Shown here: piece after piece, positions 1,556 through 18,233 of the stretch
Position numbering within the stretch: position 1 is the first letter of the stretch
Layout of the letters: the number at the start of each line of letters is the position of its first letter
Assembly: GCA_009840355.1 (NCBI GenBank)
Contig: VXNZ01000026.1
Location: forward strand, 36,921-100,920
Reading direction: 5' to 3'
Length of the DNA: 64,000 nucleotides
DNA from: Chloroflexota bacterium
Lineage (GTDB): Bacteria > Chloroflexota > Dehalococcoidia > Lucifugimonadales > JADFKI01
The notes under the pieces: generated by a model
Databases searched by the model: none
The model's input: the letters and a program-made list of their open reading frames with translations, nothing else
What the model was told of the DNA's origin: nothing
Program-made: the position numbers and the translations under genes

Positions 1556-4500
1556 GTGAATCATATTGACTCTCGCATTGTTACTGTGCCTATTGGCGAA
1601 AGCAGCCTTGCCGCACTGGACGAAGGCGTGGCGCGCGCGAAGGGCGACGCTCCGTTTGGGCGGGTCGTTGTCATCACAGACCATGTGGATGTCGGCAGCG
1701 CCGTTCGTCATCACTTAGGGACGTCGAACCTGCTCAATGTTTCCGTCCAGACCGGACGAATGTTTGCATCTGAACTCGCTGCGCCTATGTTCCGGAACAA
1801 GTTCAAGCAGGACGGCAGGAAGTATCGCCCGCTCTCTCCCCTGCGAGAACACCTAGCAGTTCGACAGGTGTCGGAAGAAGTGATGGAGCAGCACGACTTC
1901 CGTCTGTCCGGTCACAGCCGGATGATAAGGTCGCTCGCGGATGCCTTCCGTCGGATGCAAGAGCGTCCGCAAGACGATGGGGAGCCGGATGCCGGCCAGG
2001 ATATGACGCGGACCGGCGAAGGGCTATTGAAGAAATTCTTGGGACTAGTGCACGATTGGGATTGCTACACGCCGGCGGAACTGCCCCATATGGCTGCCGA
2101 AGCCCTTGAACGGCACTTGCCGCCGGAAAGTACGGTTCCGCATGTCATTTACTACTTGCCTAGGCGACTGTCTGAGGGCGACCTGCGACTGGTGCAGGCT
2201 TTGAGCGAGCGGGACAGGTGCGAATTAATCCTAGGCGTCAACGGCGACGAACAGGCAGACCAGCCGGTTCAAGAGCTTCTCGCCCGTTTGAATGAACCTA
2301 TCAATGGCGATGCCACTATCGAAGGCGATACTGCCCACGCTAATCCCCTTCAGCGGATTGCCGATGACGGCTGCATGTCCATAATCGCCGTGCCCGATCC
2401 GGCGGAGGAGGTTCGCATGGTAATCAGAGCCATTTCCGTCGAAAAAGCGCCATTTCACCGTACTGCCATAATATATCGGCAGGATAACCCGTATGCGACT
2501 CTACTGCGGCAAGAACTGGATGCGGCAGAAATACCATATTCGGGCACAGAACGCCGCAGTCTGGCGAGCACTCCATCAGGGCTGTTGCTGCTGGGCATCA
2601 TCGATCTCGCGTTAGGCGTAATCCACGAGGGCGCTATCGACCGCGAACGACTCATCGAGCTGATGACTTCGACGCCGATGAAATATCCGTCGAATAACGG
2701 AAACTATAAACGACCGTTCCATCCAGTGCCCGCATCGCAGTGGGCAGCGCTGGCTCGCGAAGCCCGTGCGGATGGCGGGCGGAAGCAATGGCACCGCCGC
2801 TTTCAGGCTTACCTAGATAATGAGAAGAGTCTTGCGATGGAGGCTGAGAGTAGGCGTCCTCGTCTGGAAAGAATGGAAAGGGAGATTTCCGAACTTCTTC
2901 GCTTCTTAGACGAGCTTGATGGTGCGCTTGAAGCGCTTGCAGGCGAATCTTGGCAGACTACGGTGAAGGGACTGCGGCGCTTGCTAGACCATTACCGTAT
3001 GGACACGGATGCTGAGTCTCAGGATGACCGACGGCGAATCGAAGAATTACTGGATAGCATGCAGTCGCTGGATGAGTTGGGGTATGAATTGAACCCACAA
3101 CTGCTGCGGGAAGTGCTTCACAACGGCCTTCAGAGTCCGGTATCGAACCGTGGCAGACCAGTGGGCGCGGGCGTGTACCTAGGTCCTCCGGCAGGCGTGG
3201 TTGGCACCGACTACGACACGGTGTATGTGCTTGGCATGGTGGAGAGGCAATTCCCGCCGCGTCCGGGAACGAACCCCTGGGTCGGCGGTAACCTGTCTGC
3301 GACCCAGCATGAGATGGCGCTGGAACGGTACGACTTCCTGGGTGGGATAGCCTCCGCGCAGAAGGCGGTTCTGTCATGGCCCGCCGCGACTGCGGAGCGC
3401 ACATCGGCATATCCTTCACGCTGGCTTATCGAAGCCGCGAATCTGCTTCATGCCGGCGCCGAAAGCGATGAACGGATTACCTATGAGAATCTCACCGAGA
3501 ACTCAGCCAACAAGCGATGGCTCACGGTCATTCCTTCACGAGAAGCAGGGCTGCGCGAACTCCCTGCATCTAAACCTAAAATGGAACCTGCCGACCGAGC
3601 CGACTACAACCTAATGCATCTGGTAACGCTCGCTGACACGGATGACGCGGACTTGAAGGCGCAGCAACTGGAGTCGCATCCTGCCATGGCGAAGGATACC
3701 CGCATGCGCCATGCGCTCAAGGCGCGAGCGGCTCGCTTCGGCGACAAACTGACCGAGTGGGACGGGCGAGTCGGGGCAGATAGCAGCCGCATCGCGGGTA
3801 TTGGCAGCACAGAATATCCGCTCTCGCCAAGTGCGCTCGAAGATTGGGCAACCTGTCCCTATAGGTTCTTCCTTGGACGGATACTACGGTTATCGTCGCC
3901 GAGGGACACGGAAGATGGGGAAATATCCAATCTTGATAGGGGCGGTCTAGTGCATAGAGTCCTAGAGCGATTCGTCAATGAGCGCGGCAGCACAGAAGAG
4001 AAACTCTTGGAATTGGCGCATGAGGAATTCGATTCGGCGGAGGAACGCGGGATAACCGGGCATCACCTGCTCTGGGAAATCGAAAAGCGGCGTATCCTTG
4101 ATGCGCTGAAGGCATTCTACGGGAAAGATGTTCAATGGCTTGGTGGCGCGACAACCGAATCCGCTGCCGAGCTTAACTTTGGAAGCGAATCCGATATCGG
4201 AAATGTGGTTGTCTCGGTCGAAGGTCTTGGCGATGTCAGTTTCAGGGGCAAGATAGACCGCGTGGATGTCTTGGACGGCGAGGTGAGGGTGCGCGACTTC
4301 AAGACCGGCAAGCCGGATTCATATCGGGGCAGGAATCCGAAAAGGACTGTCGCCAATGGATGCGCTATGCAGCTGCCCGTCTATCTTGAGGCGGCGCGTT
4401 CGATGCATCCTGACAAGCCGATAGCAGCGTCATACTGTTTCCCGCTGGCTGACAAGAACACCCATGACGTCGCGCCCTACACCGAGCAAAATAAGGAAGA

Positions 4501-4741
4501 ATTTCTGAACACCCTTGCCTTAATCGTCGGGGCGGCGCGCGACGGAATCTTCCCCGCTACGCCTGAGCAGGCAAGCGGCGAATGGGGCGGCAATTGCGGA
4601 TACTGCGACTTCAAGAGCCTGTGTCCTGCCCGTAAGCGCTTGTTCTGGGAGCGCAAGGGTGGGAACGACGCCGCCTTGCAGCCGATTGAAAGGCTGCAAA
4701 ATCCCGAAGCAGTAGTCGAACCGGAAGAGGAAAATGCCTGA
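1556..4741 (+). CDS. addB: AddB-like helicase/nuclease subunit (PD-(D/E)XK, Fe-S)
   Basis: This 1061-aa protein is probably the B subunit of an AddAB-type double-strand-break resection enzyme. The C-terminal part has the nuclease core (GKIDRVDV, then D914 and K916 in RDFKTGK). Four cysteines C767, C1014, C1017 and C1023 follow the AddB iron-sulfur spacing (C, long gap, CxxCx5C). The N-terminal part is a diverged helicase-like region without a Walker A motif, so any motor function would rest on the partner. It starts with GTG after GGGTAGG. It overlaps the downstream addA-like gene by 8 bp, which implies translational coupling. Family assignment rests on the Fe-S nuclease signature and on the neighbour. 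Confidence 0.85.
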   Translation: MNHIDSRIVTVPIGESSLAALDEGVARAKGDAPFGRVVVITDHVDVGSAVRHHLGTSNLLNVSVQTGRMFASELAAPMFRNKFKQDGRKYRPLSPLREHLAVRQVSEEVMEQHDFRLSGHSRMIRSLADAFRRMQERPQDDGEPDAGQDMTRTGEGLLKKFLGLVHDWDCYTPAELPHMAAEALERHLPPESTVPHVIYYLPRRLSEGDLRLVQALSERDRCELILGVNGDEQADQPVQELLARLNEPINGDATIEGDTAHANPLQRIADDGCMSIIAVPDPAEEVRMVIRAISVEKAPFHRTAIIYRQDNPYATLLRQELDAAEIPYSGTERRSLASTPSGLLLLGIIDLALGVIHEGAIDRERLIELMTSTPMKYPSNNGNYKRPFHPVPASQWAALAREARADGGRKQWHRRFQAYLDNEKSLAMEAESRRPRLERMEREISELLRFLDELDGALEALAGESWQTTVKGLRRLLDHYRMDTDAESQDDRRRIEELLDSMQSLDELGYELNPQLLREVLHNGLQSPVSNRGRPVGAGVYLGPPAGVVGTDYDTVYVLGMVERQFPPRPGTNPWVGGNLSATQHEMALERYDFLGGIASAQKAVLSWPAATAERTSAYPSRWLIEAANLLHAGAESDERITYENLTENSANKRWLTVIPSREAGLRELPASKPKMEPADRADYNLMHLVTLADTDDADLKAQQLESHPAMAKDTRMRHALKARAARFGDKLTEWDGRVGADSSRIAGIGSTEYPLSPSALEDWATCPYRFFLGRILRLSSPRDTEDGEISNLDRGGLVHRVLERFVNERGSTEEKLLELAHEEFDSAEERGITGHHLLWEIEKRRILDALKAFYGKDVQWLGGATTESAAELNFGSESDIGNVVVSVEGLGDVSFRGKIDRVDVLDGEVRVRDFKTGKPDSYRGRNPKRTVANGCAMQLPVYLEAARSMHPDKPIAASYCFPLADKNTHDVAPYTEQNKEEFLNTLALIVGAARDGIFPATPEQASGEWGGNCGYCDFKSLCPARKRLFWERKGGNDAALQPIERLQNPEAVVEPEEENA

Positions 4742-8414: not shown

Positions 8415-11156
8415 TTACCGGCGATCCAGCCTTGAAGGCATCGCGTCGTGCTGTATTCCTCTCACCTCCATGCCCTGTGTACCTGATGAGCCGCTGCTAA
8501 CTGTCAGGGTGAAGTCGCCCAGGGTCTGCGGTTCGTATGTCGTCATATCGATGTAATATACTTTGCCTCCCGTTGGCGTCCAGCTGACTTTGGAGTTAGT
8601 ATTGCCCCGCACGATGTCGTCATTCCCGGCGACAAAGACGCGACCCTCGTTTTCTTCATCCCATTCCCAAAGGAACAGCGCCGTGTCTTTGCTCGATTCC
8701 AGTGTAGCTGTCCAGGCTCCACTTCCTACGGCAGTCACCTCGAAGCCCGTGTATCGATAATATCGGGCGCCTGCCGCTAGCGGAATCCCCGTGATTTCCT
8801 CTATTCTTTCACGGCTCAATGAATAGACACACTCTTGTGTCCATGAACCCGACAATACGATGGGCAGACCGGAGGATGCCGGCACATCAATGAAGCAAGG
8901 ATCCGGCTCAGGCGTCGCCGTCGGCTCTGCAGTGGCAGTAGGCTCAGGAGTTACGCCCGGCGGCAATGGCGTCGCAGTCGGTGTGGGAGTCTGCGTCGGT
9001 GTGGGCGTCGGTTGAGAAGCGCCCAGTTCCAGCGCTGCCACCCTGCTTGTCAGCGCGTCTATGGCATTTTGCAGCGTCACGATGAGCGCTTCCAGAATTT
9101 TCACCCTGTTCTCTATTTCTGATCCATCTGGTGACTCCGGCGTAGGGCTGGGAGTGGGCGTAGAGGTGGCGGTTGGCTTCGGCGTAGGGCTGGGAGTAAG
9201 CGTCGGGGTAGCGGTTGGCTCCGGCGTAGAGCTAGGAGTGGATGTCGGGGTAGCGGTTGGCTCCGGCGTAGGGCTAGGAACGGGCGTAGCGGTGGAGGTT
9301 AGCGTGGGCGCGTCGGACGCCGGCAGGTGAGCGAAACCGTGTCCCCATATATTGTCGGCGCCTGCTGCGCCGCGTGGCGCGGCGTTGTCCTTTAGGTATT
9401 GCGCGGTCTGCTGCGGACTATACTGCGGGAAGCGCTGCCTTACGAGGGCTGCCAAGCCGGCGACATGGGGGGATGCCTGGCTCGTTCCGAAGAAGTAGCC
9501 GTTAAGATTGCGCTCTGTGCGATATGTTACCGATTGCCCGGCGTCCGCGCCCACAATGTCAGGCTTAGTTCTATCGTCGAGCGTTGGGCCTCGGCTGCTG
9601 AACGGCTCGATTATGGTGGTGTCGAATGGGTTGCTGATACTGCTGTTCCGTCCGGCAGCGCCTACTGCTAGCAGGCCGGGGTTCGAGCTTTCGGCGGGAT
9701 TGGTGATGCTATGGGCGGCTGTGTGGTGCTGCAACGCGCCCGACGCGCCCCAGGCCAGAACCTGAACCCAATTCGGCGCCTCGCCTGAGTGTTTGACCAC
9801 GGCAAGGCAGTACACGCCGTTGGGGATGTCGCCGTACCCGATTCTAATCCGTTCGAATGGGACGTCGCTCGCTCTCCCCGACTGCGCTGTAACGCTCTGG
9901 GCGACAGCATCATCGGGCAGTATGAATGTGTTGCCTGACAAGGCAACTAGATAGAGGTCCAGATCGGTGTCTGCGCCGCCCCAGGAGCCTTCCCATCGGA
10001 GCTGCGCGGTGAAGCCTTCAAGAGGATCCAGTTCGATGCGAACGCCGTTGCATTCGTCCTTCGTCGTTGCGCTGAAATCGTGAACATTGTCGGTGTCGGT
10101 GTCGGAGTAATTGCCGAACCAATTTGCCCTAGCCTGGTTTCCTGCGGCGTTGACCCAGATGATGCCGCCCCTCACGGCGGCATCAACGGTTTTCAGGGGG
10201 CTGTTGCTGTATGGCGTTGTGCCGTCACCCGGCCCATGGAATGAAAAGCCAAGCGACATGTTGACGACGTCGACGCCCTCGGACTCCATCCACTCTACGG
10301 TTTCGAGCAGGTCTCCAAAAGACCAAACATTCGCTATGTAGTAGTCGGCTTCGGGCGCGATGTCGAACGCGGCTTCGGTTACCGCCGTGCCGTGCAGCTT
10401 TGTAGATTCAGTTCTTTCCGTGGGTATGCAGTCCGTGAGGCTTGAAGTGAATACGCCGACAGCGGTATAACATCTTGCTTCCACGGTCGAGGGCAGTTCC
10501 GTTCCCATAAGTTCTGCGAAGCCTTTGAAGCCCGCGTCGATTATGCCAATCTTGACACCGCTGCCCTTGATGCCGCCGGCGTGCCACGCGGGGACTCCAT
10601 GTGCTTCCACGCCCTCGCTGACAACTGCGCCTTGTGCGGGCTGGGGAGGAATGATGGTTCGGACGCTTATGACGCCTTCTTGTTGGGACGCATCAGGCAG
10701 CAGCGACACAGGAATGTACGCCTCGATGTAGTCTGTGCCGATGTTGCGCGGAGATGCGCCGTTCTCTTCAAGCCAGTCCCATAAGTCTTGGGCGTAGCCT
10801 TCAGTGATGTAGAGAGTAACGGCGACGGATTGCTCGTCGTGGATGGGCGCGCTCGCAGCGGCGACTTGCGCGCTGAACTGGCCTGACTGCACCTGCTCGA
10901 TGATGCGGTTGAGGTCGGAGTCCATGTTGGGGTATTGGGGCGGCTTAATCTTACCCTCACTGATGGTGGCATTCTCCACGCCTTGCCCATCTACCGGCTC
11001 TGTGGCAGCTTGGGGAGTGGGAGTGCCTCCGGTCTGCGCGAGTACCGTGGGCGCGTTACCACCGGCGGAGAGCGCCAGCCAAAGAAGCCCGACAGCCGCG
11101 ATTGTCAGGCTGATCGCCGCCAACTGCTTGACTCGCCCTTGAAGGTGATTGTTCAT
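8415..11156 (-). CDS. Secreted subtilisin-like (S8) serine protease
   Basis: This 913-aa exported protease has a signal peptide (about residues 1-41, ending VLAQ) and a prodomain-like segment to about 190. The S8 catalytic domain carries D207 (IGIIDAG), H255 (LHGTAV), oxyanion-hole N340 (NAAGN) and S559 (GTSQASPHVAG). A Thr/Pro-rich linker built of TPEPTATPT units follows, interrupted by a short heptad-like segment (EIENRVKILEALIVTLQ). A C-terminal beta domain resembles PPC-type domains. Start is ATG at 11156 with GGAGGA 9 bp upstream. The linker suggests a surface-attached or secreted enzyme whose domains are held apart. No sorting or anchor motif is visible at the C-terminus. Confidence 0.9.
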   Translation of the reverse strand: MNNHLQGRVKQLAAISLTIAAVGLLWLALSAGGNAPTVLAQTGGTPTPQAATEPVDGQGVENATISEGKIKPPQYPNMDSDLNRIIEQVQSGQFSAQVAAASAPIHDEQSVAVTLYITEGYAQDLWDWLEENGASPRNIGTDYIEAYIPVSLLPDASQQEGVISVRTIIPPQPAQGAVVSEGVEAHGVPAWHAGGIKGSGVKIGIIDAGFKGFAELMGTELPSTVEARCYTAVGVFTSSLTDCIPTERTESTKLHGTAVTEAAFDIAPEADYYIANVWSFGDLLETVEWMESEGVDVVNMSLGFSFHGPGDGTTPYSNSPLKTVDAAVRGGIIWVNAAGNQARANWFGNYSDTDTDNVHDFSATTKDECNGVRIELDPLEGFTAQLRWEGSWGGADTDLDLYLVALSGNTFILPDDAVAQSVTAQSGRASDVPFERIRIGYGDIPNGVYCLAVVKHSGEAPNWVQVLAWGASGALQHHTAAHSITNPAESSNPGLLAVGAAGRNSSISNPFDTTIIEPFSSRGPTLDDRTKPDIVGADAGQSVTYRTERNLNGYFFGTSQASPHVAGLAALVRQRFPQYSPQQTAQYLKDNAAPRGAAGADNIWGHGFAHLPASDAPTLTSTATPVPSPTPEPTATPTSTPSSTPEPTATPTLTPSPTPKPTATSTPTPSPTPESPDGSEIENRVKILEALIVTLQNAIDALTSRVAALELGASQPTPTPTQTPTPTATPLPPGVTPEPTATAEPTATPEPDPCFIDVPASSGLPIVLSGSWTQECVYSLSRERIEEITGIPLAAGARYYRYTGFEVTAVGSGAWTATLESSKDTALFLWEWDEENEGRVFVAGNDDIVRGNTNSKVSWTPTGGKVYYIDMTTYEPQTLGDFTLTVSSGSSGTQGMEVRGIQHDAMPSRLDRR
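9139..9306 (-). repeat. 42-bp tandem repeats coding the Thr/Pro linker
   Basis: Units start at 9139, 9181, 9223 and 9265, each beginning GGCGTAG on the + strand. The first three are near identical and the fourth is degenerate at its end. Each unit codes 14 residues of the TPxPTATPT linker in the subtilase, so copy number probably varies in frame and changes linker length. Confidence 0.8.
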
Positions 11157-14032: not shown

Positions 14033-15076
14033 ATGAAATTCGCATTATTCACCCATGTGCCCTGGCCCGAAGGTGAATCTCCGGCGCGTCTGTTCGCCGA
14101 GTGCGTGGAGCAGGCGGTGTTCGGCGAGCGGCTCGGCTTTCACAGCTTCTGGATTGCCGAGCACCACTTCTCTCGTTACAGCCTTGGCTCGTCGTCGCTG
14201 GTGCTGGCAGCGGCGATAGCGTCTCGCACGGAGCGCGTACGGCTCGGCACGGGCGTGCTCATTCCCACGCTGCACAACCCGATACGCCTCGCAGAAGACA
14301 CCGCGACACTCGACTGCGTGAGCGGAGGGCGGCTCGATGTGGGCTTCGGGCGCGGCACTTTCGGCTACGAATACGGCGGCTTTGGAGTGGACGAAGACGA
14401 AGCGCATGCGCGCTTCCGCGAGAGCGTGCGCATTGTGCAAGGCTTGTGGACGACGCAGGAGTTCTCGCACGAGGGCGAGTTCTACACGATGAACAAGCTT
14501 AACCTCGTGCCGCCGCCGCTGCAGTCGCCGCACCCGCCGATATACATCGCCGCGTCGTACACGCAGCAGACGCTAGAGTTTCTGGTGCGCAACGGGTACA
14601 AGCTTTGCATCGCCGTCGTGCAGGATACGCAGCAGTCGCTCGCGCTGTGCCAACGCTACCTGTCGATGCGCGCCGAAGAGGGCATGGAAGCCACGCTCGA
14701 CGATGTGCCGTTCTTCCGCTACTTCTATGTCGCGGAGACGGAAGAGCAGGCGCGCGCGGACACGGCATCGCACATCAACTGGATATTGGACATCATGCAG
14801 TGGCGGCGCATATTCAGCGAAAGCAGCGAAGTGCCGTACCGCATAGCGGACTGGCGCCGCGAGCGCGAAGAACTGCCGCTGAGCTTCGATTACATCAGCG
14901 ACAACCGCGCCTTCATCGGCACGCCGGAGCAGTGCGCCGCGAAGATTGCGGAACTGCAAGCGCAGGGCGTCGAGTACTTCGGCTGCAACTTCGCTATGGG
15001 CGGCATACCGCACGACAAGGTGATGCGTTCGATGCGGCTGTTCGCGGATGAGGTGATGCCGCGGTTCGCGGATTGA
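14033..15076 (+). CDS. LLM-class flavin-dependent oxidoreductase
   Basis: This 347-aa luciferase-like monooxygenase has the family N-terminus (MKFALFTHVPWPE), an AEHHF motif near residue 43, HNPIRLAEDTATLD near 80, a GRLDVGFGRG loop near 100 and a C-terminal GTPEQCAAKI. Such enzymes use reduced FMN or F420 to oxidise small organic substrates; the substrate here cannot be told. It is a close paralogue of the protein at 54737-55777. No ribosome site is visible; a TAAACT box ends 6 bp before the ATG, compatible with a leaderless message. Confidence 0.9.
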   Translation: MKFALFTHVPWPEGESPARLFAECVEQAVFGERLGFHSFWIAEHHFSRYSLGSSSLVLAAAIASRTERVRLGTGVLIPTLHNPIRLAEDTATLDCVSGGRLDVGFGRGTFGYEYGGFGVDEDEAHARFRESVRIVQGLWTTQEFSHEGEFYTMNKLNLVPPPLQSPHPPIYIAASYTQQTLEFLVRNGYKLCIAVVQDTQQSLALCQRYLSMRAEEGMEATLDDVPFFRYFYVAETEEQARADTASHINWILDIMQWRRIFSESSEVPYRIADWRREREELPLSFDYISDNRAFIGTPEQCAAKIAELQAQGVEYFGCNFAMGGIPHDKVMRSMRLFADEVMPRFAD

Positions 15077-15130
15077 CGGGCGGATACATAACATCACTAC
15101 CTGTTGGCGACTGTTCTGCGAACAACTGTG

Positions 15131-15160
15131 TTGCAAATTTAGAAACTAATGTGTTATATT
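15131..15160 (+). promoter_or_regulatory. Promoter placing a leaderless start on the nuclease gene
   Basis: TTGCAA (15131-15136) and TATATT (15155-15160) are 18 bp apart. Transcription would begin about 6-7 bp after the -10 box, at or next to the ATG at 15167. No ribosome site is present, so a leaderless transcript is the simplest reading. Confidence 0.5.
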
Positions 15161-15166
15161 GCGTGC

Positions 15167-16867
15167 ATGGGAAAAGCACAGACGACATACCAAGTACGCG
15201 CGAAGGTGTCTAAGTCCGGTCATATCTTACTCAATGAGCGGCTGGATGAGGCGCGCTTTGAGTATAACGCCACGCTTGAAGACAGGCGCAGAGCGTACAA
15301 ACTGCTTGGTTTGTCCATAAAGAAGCAAAGCGCAGGAGTTGTGAAAAACCGCGAACCTCTTAATCGTACATTATCCGAACTTCACCGTCTGGAGCACGAG
15401 CTTACTAAACTTGAAGCCGCCGATGCGGACAAACGCAAGATTGAAGAGGCTAGGCGCGCGGTAAGTAGATGGTGGCGGGACTGGCGCGACGACCGCATGA
15501 AGGAACGATGGCCGAGCGTAGCAGAAATAGAAAGTGATGATGGAAATCATTACTACGGAAAACGCTCGGACACACGACGGCTTATCAACTCAGGGCGCAT
15601 CCTGACCGAGACGCGCAATGGCAAGACACTGCTGCCTCGTCGGGCACGCGTGGGCATCATAGAGCGCGCCGACTTCGCTTACGACGGCTTCTTCCAGCGT
15701 CTCACGCGCGGATCTACTCCGGGCTTTCCGCGCTTCAAGGGCAAGGACCGTTTTCGCACAATCTCTACGAACAGCGGTGCGGAGAATTACTTGTCGTACA
15801 ATCCTCAATCGCGCAAAGGCATGGTTCGCATCAAGGGATTCCCTACGCTGCGTTTCATGTCCAAGCGCGAGTTGTCATTGGACGAACAGGGCAAGGTAGT
15901 ACAGCCGTCGCAGATAAGTATTACGCGTAAGCGCACAGGCGTGTACCTCTCGCTTACATACCCCGTCGATGTAGAGCCACAGCGTGAAGGCATGCCACAC
16001 GCGCCCATAGGCATAGACAGGGGCATCCATGCGCTTATGGCGTTTTCGGACGGTCGTCTGTCTATCCCAGGGTTGAATGAAAACGCCAAAGCGCGGCGCA
16101 AACGCAAGCGTAAGGCGCAGCGCAAAGTAAACCGTGCCGGCGTCGCCAAAGACGGCAAGGGCGGCAAGCAAGTTACATGCGGAAAGGAAGTAAGACGCAA
16201 GCGTAATCGCGGCAACGGAGAATACATCCACTTCACCAATGGCAGGCGAAAGGCAGTCGAGGCTTTGGGGCGCGTTAGTGAACGTGACACGCTGGGTCAT
16301 CGTCAACGCTTGCACCGCTACACATCGGAAATTGTCAAATCATCGGACTTCATAGCTGTCGAAAATTTGAACATCGCCAACATGACAAAATCGGCGGCTG
16401 GAGATGCGGACAATCCCGGCAAGGGCGTGTCGGCAAAGAGCGGGCTAAACCGCTCGATACTTGAACAGGGCTGGGGATACATCGCACAGATGCTGGAGTA
16501 CAAGGCTGGGAGAGCCGGTATTCCCTTTGTGAAAGTCGAACCTGCCTATACATCGCAGACTTGCGCTGTCTGTGGCGTCATAGACGCTGCGAGTCGACGC
16601 AAGCGCAGATTCGACTGCGTAGCCTGCGACTATGAGAACGACGCCGACATTAACGGCGCGATAAATGTCTTGTCCCGTGCGCTCGTTGAGCGATACGGCA
16701 GGGGTGAAGCGCAGCCGCTCATCGAGAGGCTAATCCCCTGGGAGAGCGGCAAGAATGCCCTGCGGGGTAATGATGACTCTGCTAGACTCAAGTCGAAGAC
16801 AGAAGGGCTCCCAGAATGCCGACGTCACGCGAAGGGATTGCCACGCGGTCAGTTGCGGTTGCTCTAG
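15167..16867 (+). CDS. TnpB/Cas12-like RuvC nuclease next to a CRISPR mini-array
   Basis: This 566-aa OrfB/TnpB-related protein has a helical, charged N-terminal part and an OrfB-type segment PGFPRFKGKDRFRTIS. A split RuvC domain has D284 (IGIDRG), E399 (AVENLNI) and D494 (NDADINGA) all intact. A zinc ribbon uses C466, C469, C484 and C487. A very basic stretch lies between RuvC-I and RuvC-II. It is longer than typical TnpB (about 400 aa) and near the size of small type V-U effectors. No TnpA, transposon ends, cas1 or cas2 are seen. Its stop lies 18 bp before a regular repeat array, so an RNA-guided DNA nuclease is inferred. Start ATG 15167 is favoured over 15149 because of the promoter. A plain IS605-type TnpB remains the alternative. 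Confidence 0.85.
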   Translation: MGKAQTTYQVRAKVSKSGHILLNERLDEARFEYNATLEDRRRAYKLLGLSIKKQSAGVVKNREPLNRTLSELHRLEHELTKLEAADADKRKIEEARRAVSRWWRDWRDDRMKERWPSVAEIESDDGNHYYGKRSDTRRLINSGRILTETRNGKTLLPRRARVGIIERADFAYDGFFQRLTRGSTPGFPRFKGKDRFRTISTNSGAENYLSYNPQSRKGMVRIKGFPTLRFMSKRELSLDEQGKVVQPSQISITRKRTGVYLSLTYPVDVEPQREGMPHAPIGIDRGIHALMAFSDGRLSIPGLNENAKARRKRKRKAQRKVNRAGVAKDGKGGKQVTCGKEVRRKRNRGNGEYIHFTNGRRKAVEALGRVSERDTLGHRQRLHRYTSEIVKSSDFIAVENLNIANMTKSAAGDADNPGKGVSAKSGLNRSILEQGWGYIAQMLEYKAGRAGIPFVKVEPAYTSQTCAVCGVIDAASRRKRRFDCVACDYENDADINGAINVLSRALVERYGRGEAQPLIERLIPWESGKNALRGNDDSARLKSKTEGLPECRRHAKGLPRGQLRLL

Positions 16868-16885
16868 CTCCGTATTTCCGCTAGG

Positions 16886-17035
16886 GGCAACCCCACGCGG
16901 GCGCGGATGCTTCCTGCTTCCAGTCGTACTCCATTTCCGTCGTGTAGGCAACCCCACGCGGGCGCGGATGCTTCTCCTTGAGCGAATCACCCCAATCCCC
17001 ATGACACGGCAAACCCACGCGGGCGCGGGTGCTTC
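16886..17035 (+). CRISPR. Short CRISPR array, 28-bp repeats and 33-bp spacers
   Basis: Repeats lie at 16886-16913, 16947-16974 and 17008-17035, an exact 61-bp period. The first two are identical and the third differs at two positions. The core is CCACGCGGGCGCGG, partly self-complementary (CC.CGC against GCG.GG). Spacers at 16914-16946, 16975-17007 and 17036-17068 are each 33 bp and unrelated to one another. Decay towards the right, ending in a degenerate fourth repeat, suggests that the leader side is the nuclease-gene side. Repeat and period resemble type I-E arrays (29 + 32), yet the only nuclease beside it is the TnpB/Cas12-like one. Confidence 0.8.
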
Positions 17036-17068
17036 GTATATGGGGAGAGAGGGAAGCCCCTAATTGCA

Positions 17069-17096
17069 GGTTGACCTACGCGGTCGCGAACTGCGT
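17069..17096 (+). repeat. Degenerate terminal CRISPR repeat
   Basis: It starts exactly 61 bp after the third repeat and keeps 15 of 28 positions of the consensus, mainly the ACGCGG and CGCG core. This is what a decayed trailer-end repeat looks like, and it makes the preceding 33 bp a real third spacer. Confidence 0.55.
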
Positions 17097-17123
17097 GGGA
17101 ACTCGTTTGAATGGAGCGCACTT

Positions 17124-18233
17124 ATGAACACAGTAGGCATAGCAATCATCGGCTCCACCGGCATCATCGGCAGGGTGCATATCGATGCTATGCGCGGGCT
17201 GGATACCTGCCGGCTGGTCGGCATACACGCGCGGCGGCAGGGACCGCTGCGGCAGCAGGCGGATGAGCTTGGCACGCGGCTGTATCCCACGCTGGACGAT
17301 GTGCTGGCGGATGACGAGGTTGATGCCATTGTCATCGCAACGCCGCATCCGTCGCATATGGACATCACCACTCGAGCCGCAGCCGCCGGTAAGCATGTGC
17401 TTGCCGAAAAGCCGCTCGGCGTTACGCCGTCCGAGGCTGAGGCGCAGATTGCCGCATGCCGCGACGCCGGCGTGAAACTGGGCGTGCTTTTCAACAACCG
17501 CTTTCGTCCCGAAGCGATGAAAGTGCGCCAGCTCATCGACGACGGCGCTATAGGCGAGATTTATCGATCCGAGATGTCGTCCGCGATGCTCCGCACGCAG
17601 GACTATTACGATCGACTAGATTGGCGGGGCAGGTGGGACGCAGAAGGCGGCGGCGCGCTGCTGAACCAGGGCATTCACGGCATCGACATGTACCAGTGGC
17701 TCGCGGGAATGCCGCAGACGGTCTTCGGCAAGGTGTCCACGCTGAAGCACAACATTGAAGTCGAAGACTACGCCACCGCGCTGCTCGGCTATGCGGGCGG
17801 TGGGCACGGCGTCATACACTGCAACACCGCGCAAGCGCCCAATCAGCAGCGGATCGCATTGTGGGGCGAACGCGGCGCGATATTTATGGACGACTGGCGA
17901 ATCACGCTGCGCACGCTGGATACGCCGTTGCAGCAGTTCATAGACACGGACAAGACGATAGCCTTCGTCAGCCCGTCGGACACGGAGGCGGCATTCGATT
18001 TCGAGCCGGTGTCGGGCGGCACGCACAGACCGGCAATCGACGACTTCGCGTGCGCCATCATCGAAGGCCGCGATCCTGCCGTAACCGGCGAAGACGCTCT
18101 GCGATCGCAAGAACTCGTCGCCGCGATAACCATGTCCGGCTGCCGCAACGAACAGGTCCACCTGCCCATTAACCGCGCCGAGTACGACACGCTGCTCGCG
18201 GAATTGCGGCGGACGGGCAGGCTGCCTAGTTAG
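17124..18233 (+). CDS. Gfo/Idh/MocA family oxidoreductase
   Basis: This 369-aa NAD(P)-dependent dehydrogenase has a Rossmann loop variant GSTGIIGRVH near residue 9, the EKPLG motif near residue 97 and a C-terminal alpha/beta substrate domain. Members oxidise or epimerise sugars, inositols and related polyols; the substrate here is unknown. ATG 17124 follows TGGAG at 7 bp, and an upstream in-frame start would run through the end of the CRISPR array. A methyltransferase gene follows 4 bp after the stop, probably in one operon. Confidence 0.88.
   Translation: MNTVGIAIIGSTGIIGRVHIDAMRGLDTCRLVGIHARRQGPLRQQADELGTRLYPTLDDVLADDEVDAIVIATPHPSHMDITTRAAAAGKHVLAEKPLGVTPSEAEAQIAACRDAGVKLGVLFNNRFRPEAMKVRQLIDDGAIGEIYRSEMSSAMLRTQDYYDRLDWRGRWDAEGGGALLNQGIHGIDMYQWLAGMPQTVFGKVSTLKHNIEVEDYATALLGYAGGGHGVIHCNTAQAPNQQRIALWGERGAIFMDDWRITLRTLDTPLQQFIDTDKTIAFVSPSDTEAAFDFEPVSGGTHRPAIDDFACAIIEGRDPAVTGEDALRSQELVAAITMSGCRNEQVHLPINRAEYDTLLAELRRTGRLPS

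Follow-up and report, generated by a model that had tools for sequence, protein, structure and literature searches.

The transposon-CRISPR intermediates named TranC (LaTranC) reportedly combine a split guide RNA with a TnpB-like effector and an array of clustered regularly interspaced short palindromic repeats (CRISPR). The guide RNA (omegaRNA) of ISDra2 TnpB is described as a natural single guide RNA, composed of a CRISPR RNA (crRNA)-like part and a trans-activating crRNA (tracrRNA)-like part, with a pseudoknot in which bases −6 to −2, beside the guide, pair with bases −102 to −106 (PMC10097598). Cas12n (C2c9) of type V-N (V-U4) is described as having its tracrRNA within the Cas12n mRNA and as a possible TnpB-Cas12 intermediate (PMC11641405), and the 2025 CRISPR classification reports that TnpB is inferred to have become associated with arrays or adaptation modules about 50 times independently, with many more cases still to be found (PMC12669027). 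Here we analyze a 64,000-nucleotide stretch of a Chloroflexota genome (contig VXNZ01000026.1, positions 36,921 to 100,920; hereafter “the window”), in which the gene of a TnpB/Cas12-like RNA-guided nuclease is directly followed by a CRISPR mini-array (Table 1). Given that about 50 such events have already been inferred, the TnpB-array pairing is of a known kind, with Cas12n and TranC as the nearest named examples; the distinctive features here are a series of loci within one genus, a fixed geometry of 28-bp repeats and 33-bp spacers (28/33) in two clades, and phage-plasmid arrays with identifiable targets. The window unit is probably a TnpB on its way to becoming a miniature type V effector, its array being the multiplied 3′ part of a TnpB guide RNA.

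Table 1. Positions of the nuclease gene, its array and associated features in the window
Feature	Coordinates	Strand	Remarks
TnpB/Cas12-like RNA-guided nuclease gene	15149..16867	+	complete open reading frame, 572 aa from first ATG
Candidate omegaRNA stem-1 hairpin CGGC(AGGGGTGAAGCGCA)GCCG	16696..16717	+	loop GAAGCG (16706-16711) can pair with repeat 3′ end TGCTTC
Repeat 1, 28 bp	16886..16913	+	starts 18 bp after stop codon
Spacer 1, 33 bp	16914..16946	+	no target found
Repeat 2	16947..16974	+	28/28 identical to repeat 1
Spacer 2, 33 bp	16975..17007	+	no target found
Repeat 3	17008..17035	+	26/28 identical
Spacer 3, 33 bp	17036..17068	+	no target found
Decayed terminal repeat 4, in register	17069..17096	+	15/28; 3′ end without the GCTTC common to repeats 1-3
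Block with gene and array, 2,046 bp (ends approximate)	15078..17123	+	missing from the corresponding site of congener G003

The unit resembles ISDra2 TnpB and the IS200/IS605 family in fold, RuvC triad, zinc ribbon and a putative scaffold for the guide RNA encoded at the 3′ end of the gene; it differs in lacking a Y1 TnpA match, in being present as a single copy, in having a REC region longer by about 80 residues, and in carrying arrayed guides rather than one. The open reading frame (ORF) ends with a stop codon at 16865-16867; an alternative ATG at 15167 gives 566 aa, and the ORF list contains no start at 15131. The RuvC triad (D290/E405/D500) and the zinc-ribbon cysteines are intact. The protein scores 197.7 bits against the NCBIfam model for RNA-guided TnpB (cut-off 100) and also matches the Pfam models Cas12f1-like TNB and OrfB_IS605. 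The names Cas12u4, Cas12f and Csx1 offered by PADLOC do not discriminate, as other TnpBs, array-less ones included, match them too; the NCBIfam name C2c8 scores below its cut-off, matches other TnpBs as well and decides nothing.

The repeats of the array start 61 and 61 bp apart and are 93-100% identical, whereas the spacers are pairwise identical at only 10-11 of 33 positions, no more than shuffled sequences. The identity of the terminal repeat 4 is equaled by 186 of 63,723 other 28-mers of the window. Rfam gave no match at 14800-17400, and repeat 2 matches 20 nt of the tnpB coding sequence in the congener G004 (E 0.08), which was taken as chance. These results show the unit to be genuine and no artifact, and agree with the initial annotation of the locus from its sequence, which had described a 566-aa ORF longer than usual TnpB, with D284/E399/D494 (the same triad in its numbering) and a zinc ribbon, an 18-bp gap, three 28-bp repeats with 33-bp spacers on a 61-bp period, and decay of the array on the side away from the nuclease gene, where the most decayed copy (17069-17096) indeed lies.

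Three stretches of the protein, residues 57-75, 96-158 (REC region) and 337-362, are absent from most of 20 relatives compared; the first two sit between WED strands 1 and 2, the site of the REC domain and of REC2 insertions in Cas12. Cas12 enzymes have been argued to have gained a REC2 insertion or to have dimerized in order to read longer guides (PMC10097598), and the window protein would fit the insertion route, with the insert modeled at low confidence: the AlphaFold model, built on a 21-row alignment, has a middling predicted local distance difference test score of 73.6, and residues 117-158 fall below 50. The best structural match of this model is ISDra2 TnpB (8exa, Z 20.8, 327 residues, 3.1 Å; 8h1j, Z 19.3), followed by ISFba1 TnpB, Fanzor2, Cas12p and Cas12f; LaTranC (9jfq) scores Z 15.2, and RdCas12n, whose chain is only partly resolved, Z 11.9. 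By sequence, the top PDB chain is RdCas12n (9j09, E 6e-25), ahead of ISDra2 TnpB (2e-13). The same order holds for the G004 homologue (2e-26 and 1e-11) and, with a narrower gap, for the array-less TnpB L039 (2e-33 and 2e-31); it is reversed for the array-less actinobacterial TnpB L064 (RdCas12n 6e-38, ISDra2 TnpB 3e-40). The unit shares with Cas12n a small TnpB-like effector and has RdCas12n as its best PDB sequence match, whereas in a tree of the C-terminal region, made by a quick method, the single RdCas12n fragment (152 aa) lies outside the window's mostly Chloroflexota clade; this comparison is one of proteins. Cas12n has a 5′-AAN protospacer-adjacent motif, for which the window spacers, with no target found, offer no counterpart. 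TranC is more distant: the sequence match to LaTranC is weak (E 1.6e-6), and TnpB structures resemble the model more closely than LaTranC does.

Related arrays recur within the genus. Three of the eight family genomes compared match the window protein, and the possibility left open by the initial annotation, that close relatives are all array-less, does not apply, as two relatives of the same genus carry arrays. In G004, a homologue with 33% identity and an intact RuvC triad (L038, also L067) is followed 1 bp after its stop codon by three 28-bp repeats with a period of 61; in G001, the array of a homologue with 38% identity (L042) begins 16 bp after the stop codon and has five repeats of the 28/33 geometry, with one extra base in repeat 4 and with spacers unlike each other (9-14/33 identical among spacers 1-3). 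The arrays of the window, G004 and L042 have different repeats and different neighboring genes. No array was found at the four further G001 homologues compared (L043, L044, L039 and L041). Two of these, L039 and L041, are 85% identical and represent two copies of one 1.4-kb TnpB element, bounded by the matching inverted sequences GAGACGATTTCA/TGAAATCGTCTC; the genus therefore contains ordinary mobile TnpBs next to TnpBs with arrays. In L042, L043 (also L051) and L044 (also L052) the first RuvC residue is replaced (N, N and K, respectively), and so is the third (T, S and S); judged by these residues, all three are likely nuclease-dead TnpBs, of which L042 bears the five-repeat array.

In a tree of 146 TnpBs, the window protein, L042, L051 and L052 group together (support 91) within a 15-row clade that is mostly Chloroflexota (support 99). 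Also in this clade is L050, a TnpB of Tepidiformaceae, with 36-bp repeats and 30-bp spacers (66-bp period) downstream of the gene (4351-4551). The presence of arrays is weakly clustered on the tree, requiring 6 changes, a number as low in 61 of 500 shuffles; the starred branches force at least 4. The window protein alone as query retrieved no relatives from GTDB contigs or IMG/VR; a 7-row alignment as query retrieved at least 80 loci from each. Among the spacers of L042, spacer 1 had no match in IMG/VR with 18-nt seeds, a search that did not extend to its spacers 3 onward or to those of L038, and the single contig matched by spacer 2, over 18 nt and without extension, was taken as chance. Homology with L043 places the ancestral guide end of L042 upstream of repeat 1, at a distance of about one 61-bp unit; the 28-mers there are unlike, and we draw no conclusion from this.

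Clustering of 179 TnpB ORFs at 90% left 150, and removal of 2 with short flanks left 148 non-redundant loci; a repeat with a 61-bp period lies directly 3′ of TnpB in 7 of the 148, any other period in at most one locus, and the 61-bp period in none of 144 upstream flanks. Four of the seven (the window, L042, L067 and L209) had been sampled as search seeds or for their arrays; the other three (L165, L188 and L190), not chosen for arrays, form one clade with L209. Repeats with a 61-bp period 3′ of TnpB exceed chance.

That second, separate clade (support 99), found in enterobacterial phage-plasmids, comprises L165, L188, L190 and L199 from IMG/VR and two Salmonella plasmids, CP067338 (L209) and CP054718 (L210), all with 61-bp arrays. 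A Klebsiella plasmid, NZ_CP033624 (L211), carries the same kind of TnpB gene with a single guide, located 159 nt from stem 1, which corresponds to the place of repeat 1 in the array bearers (162-165 nt); all three plasmid records hold phage or partition genes. The mini-arrays of L209, L210 and L199 have one or two spacers. L209 and L210 encode proteins 98.5% identical, with near-identical scaffold and last repeat, and have no spacer in common. In the plasmid collection searched, three of five spacers of this clade have a target in phage-plasmid DNA: spacer 1 of L199 matches a protelomerase gene (34/34 nt, two records); spacer 1 of L209 matches CP054718 (33/33, in an unannotated stretch) and, at 94%, genes for the tail tape-measure protein in three further records; and spacer 2 of L209 matches a tape-measure gene of Citrobacter (94%, E 0.002). 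The two L210 spacers have no target in this collection beyond the element itself, and neither the phage nor the E. coli collection matched the L199 region. The matched spacers show that real guides against other elements can be carried in a 61-bp array borne by TnpB. Virus-borne CRISPR mini-arrays described in inter-virus conflict likewise have one or two spacers aimed at related elements, with repeats identical to those of the host (PMC11656645); the phage-plasmid loci share with them the few spacers on a mobile element directed against related elements, but here the arrays belong to a neighboring TnpB with its own repeat. In L211 (3151-3480), the single-guide TnpB lies between the terminase genes, and its guide resembles, by eye, the start of terL, which suggests that this element may home into phages without it.

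The anatomy of the candidate guide RNA may link these arrays to their genes. At four loci, the 3′ end of the repeat or guide-adjacent piece varies in step with the loop of a GC hairpin in the 3′ part of the gene, in a layout like that of the ISDra2 omegaRNA: GAAGCG/TGCTTC in the window, GAAGCCT/AGGCTTC in G004, GAATCA/TGATTC in L042 and GAATCG/CGATTC in the array-less L043. When ends were swapped among loci, the highest score of each of these four scaffolds was the one obtained with its own end. Dinucleotide shuffles, 300 per locus, reach the loop-end score once for G004, 17 times for L043 and 18 times for L042; the corresponding counts for the phage-plasmid-type scaffolds L188, L198 and L199 are 10, 32 and 176.

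The genome around the unit (G000) is a metagenome-assembled genome, 97.4% complete, in 57 contigs. It contains no match to Cas1, Cas6e or Y1 transposase (Cas2 was not searched for); in the control searches Cas1 was matched in 9 of 14 genomes and Cas6e in 2 of 14, and the same searches were positive in G001 and G004. The absence of cas1 and TnpA noted initially for the locus holds in these genome-wide searches, and the type I-E locus elsewhere, to which the array might have belonged, was not found: there is neither Cas1 nor Cas6e, and the repeat is not found elsewhere in G000 at up to 3 mismatches. Across 393 genomes of the class, a 23-nt piece of the repeat was found with at most 3 mismatches in 7, namely G000 and six with one 3-mismatch match each. 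No second match to the window protein was found in G000 and no inverted repeats were seen flanking the unit. The unit is neither part of a type I-E locus in this genome nor, as there is no Y1 TnpA match and only a single copy, an ordinary IS605 copy.

At the site of insertion, where the window has the 2,046-bp block, congener G003 has the luciferase-like monooxygenase and Gfo/Idh genes only 31 bp apart (L231/L220 comparison), and G002 has a 689-aa N6-methylase-like gene between them. As G003 is empty and G002 has another gene, gene and array were gained, or lost, at a cargo-taking spot. The monooxygenase-Gfo/Idh gap (15077-17124 in the window) is likely a cargo or defense hot spot, and the G002 cargo is likely a restriction-modification gene. 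Elsewhere in the window, an ORF at 8415-11156 on the reverse strand contains a 42-bp sequence repeated four times in tandem (9135-9300), encoding a P/T-rich stretch.

We propose the following mechanism. The 3′ end of the gene would encode, once transcribed, a tracr-like guide-RNA scaffold; the guide-adjacent piece, a short hairpin with the strand that closes the pseudoknot, would have been multiplied into the 28/33-bp array, giving several guides per nuclease; repeat 1 would complete an ordinary omegaRNA in cis; and repeats 2 and 3 would be crRNA-like units using the same scaffold in trans. Because repeats 2 and 3 would be obliged to work in trans, the guide RNA would in effect fall into two pieces, one tracr-like and one crRNA-like. 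The intact RuvC site and the enlarged REC region would then allow cleavage of DNA matching the spacers, and so possibly immunity. Of the features of a TnpB-derived type V (V-U-like) system, the unit shows a single RuvC effector with intact catalytic residues, an adjoining array, and arrays in relatives. The step from TnpB to CRISPR effector suggested by the initial annotation is the best-supported reading; it is not a one-off, as it recurs in the clade and among the phage-plasmids, and its description as “fresh” was not borne out.

Several observations weigh against this proposal. The loop-end pairing in the window is not significant alone, since 97 of 300 shuffles are as good; in the swap test, none of three phage-plasmid-type scaffolds is best with its own end alone (L188 ties, L199 and L198 prefer a foreign end); the folded 3′ end of the window gene is mildly stable (z −1.35); and its single repeat-spacer units fold no better than shuffles. 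The search of the spacers against phage and plasmid DNA that had been suggested at the outset matched none of the three: they have no target in IMG/VR (exact 20-nt seeds) or among phages, plasmids and the 8 family genomes (blastn). Spacers without targets are common, however, and their absence is compatible with membership of the TnpB-derived type V group. New spacers could hardly be added in G000 now, as no Cas1 was found. Finally, spacers 1 and 2 of G004 are near-copies, identical at 30 of 33 positions, which points to duplication in that genome.

The last of these observations, together with the missing targets, is what would be expected if the array had arisen by tandem duplication of the omegaRNA end with no adaptation at all, 61-bp units having been copied and their “spacers” having drifted, so that the array is a decaying transposon end rather than a store of immunity. 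That the last repeat of the window array is its most decayed one, and that the last repeat deviates from the others in L042, L038 and L209, also fits. The window spacers and spacers 1-3 of L042 are nevertheless mutually unlike beside nearly identical window repeats; drift sparing just the 28-bp part would need selection on the repeats, and the phage-plasmid arrays hold spacers of outside origin. We therefore consider this explanation unlikely.

Somewhat less probable still is that the array is an orphan type I-E mini-array, whose cas genes were lost and beside which a TnpB landed or hitch-hiked, with no functional link between the two. Such arrays share the 28 + 33 geometry, and type I-E is present in the congeners: G004 has a true I-E locus (L230, C1:520000-533000) with Cas1, a Cas6e-type protein, Cse2 and 99 exact repeat copies in 13 kb at a 61-bp period; G001 has matches to Cas1 and Cas6e beside a 61-bp array (L248, C97:1-14000), a second Cas6e match on C5, and two further CRISPR systems whose periods are close to 73 and 66; and G002 has one Cas6e match. 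The window repeat is identical to the I-E repeats of G004 at 16 of 28 positions (as good in 122 of 20,000 mononucleotide shuffles) and of G001 at 17 of 28. Part of this likeness may be the plain stem-loop shape, as the shuffles do not keep the hairpin. However, within one genus three TnpBs that have diverged from each other are followed, at most 18 bp after the stop codon, by arrays that differ among them; the true I-E repeats are unlike the TnpB repeats of the same genome (18-19/28 identical in G004, 14/28 for L042 in G001); G000 has neither a Cas1 or Cas6e match nor a second copy of the repeat; and repeat ends track the scaffold loop in four loci.

Nuclease-dead TnpB-derived repressors are known as TldR, and the clade mates L042, L043 and L044, lacking the first and third RuvC residues, indicate that guided binding without cutting may persist nearby; that the window unit is itself an RNA-guided regulator, silencing host or phage genes, is nonetheless very improbable, as all three RuvC residues are intact in the window and G004 proteins and no spacer matches elsewhere in G000 at E up to 1.

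If the array indeed derives from a TnpB guide RNA, as we favor, the question arises of what writes its spacers. All three matched protospacers of the phage-plasmid clade have AA immediately before a first base G, the AAG of E. coli type I-E, and all nine spacers of that clade begin with G by eye. The clues to a type I-E link are the geometry shared by both clades (28/33 = 61 bp), repeats identical to those of I-E at 14-19 of 28 positions (the phage-plasmid repeats reach 19/28 with the G004 I-E repeat), AA and G at three protospacers, and the I-E loci of G004 and G001. On the other hand, the first spacer bases in the window are C, T and G, and those of L042 are not all G either; this mark of I-E acquisition is therefore missing from the Chloroflexota arrays. 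It is conceivable, although we hold it to be somewhat less than an even prospect, that TnpB guide-RNA ends became look-alikes of I-E repeats in at least two separate clades and were extended in trans by the I-E spacer-acquisition machinery. Acquisition by I-E Cas1-Cas2 is a lead rather than a result, and a stronger one for G001 and G004 than for G000. If true, new type V systems would be born by borrowing the adaptation module of another type, with the guide-RNA hairpin as bait.

In conclusion, how a single-guide transposon nuclease becomes an array-bearing CRISPR effector is an open question on which this genus bears: it contains array-less mobile TnpBs, a seemingly nuclease-dead TnpB with an array, and intact TnpBs with arrays, and in a second clade nearly the same element occurs both with a single guide and with an array, its targets being traceable. 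How a CRISPR array is born, and what writes its spacers, can thereby be tested directly.

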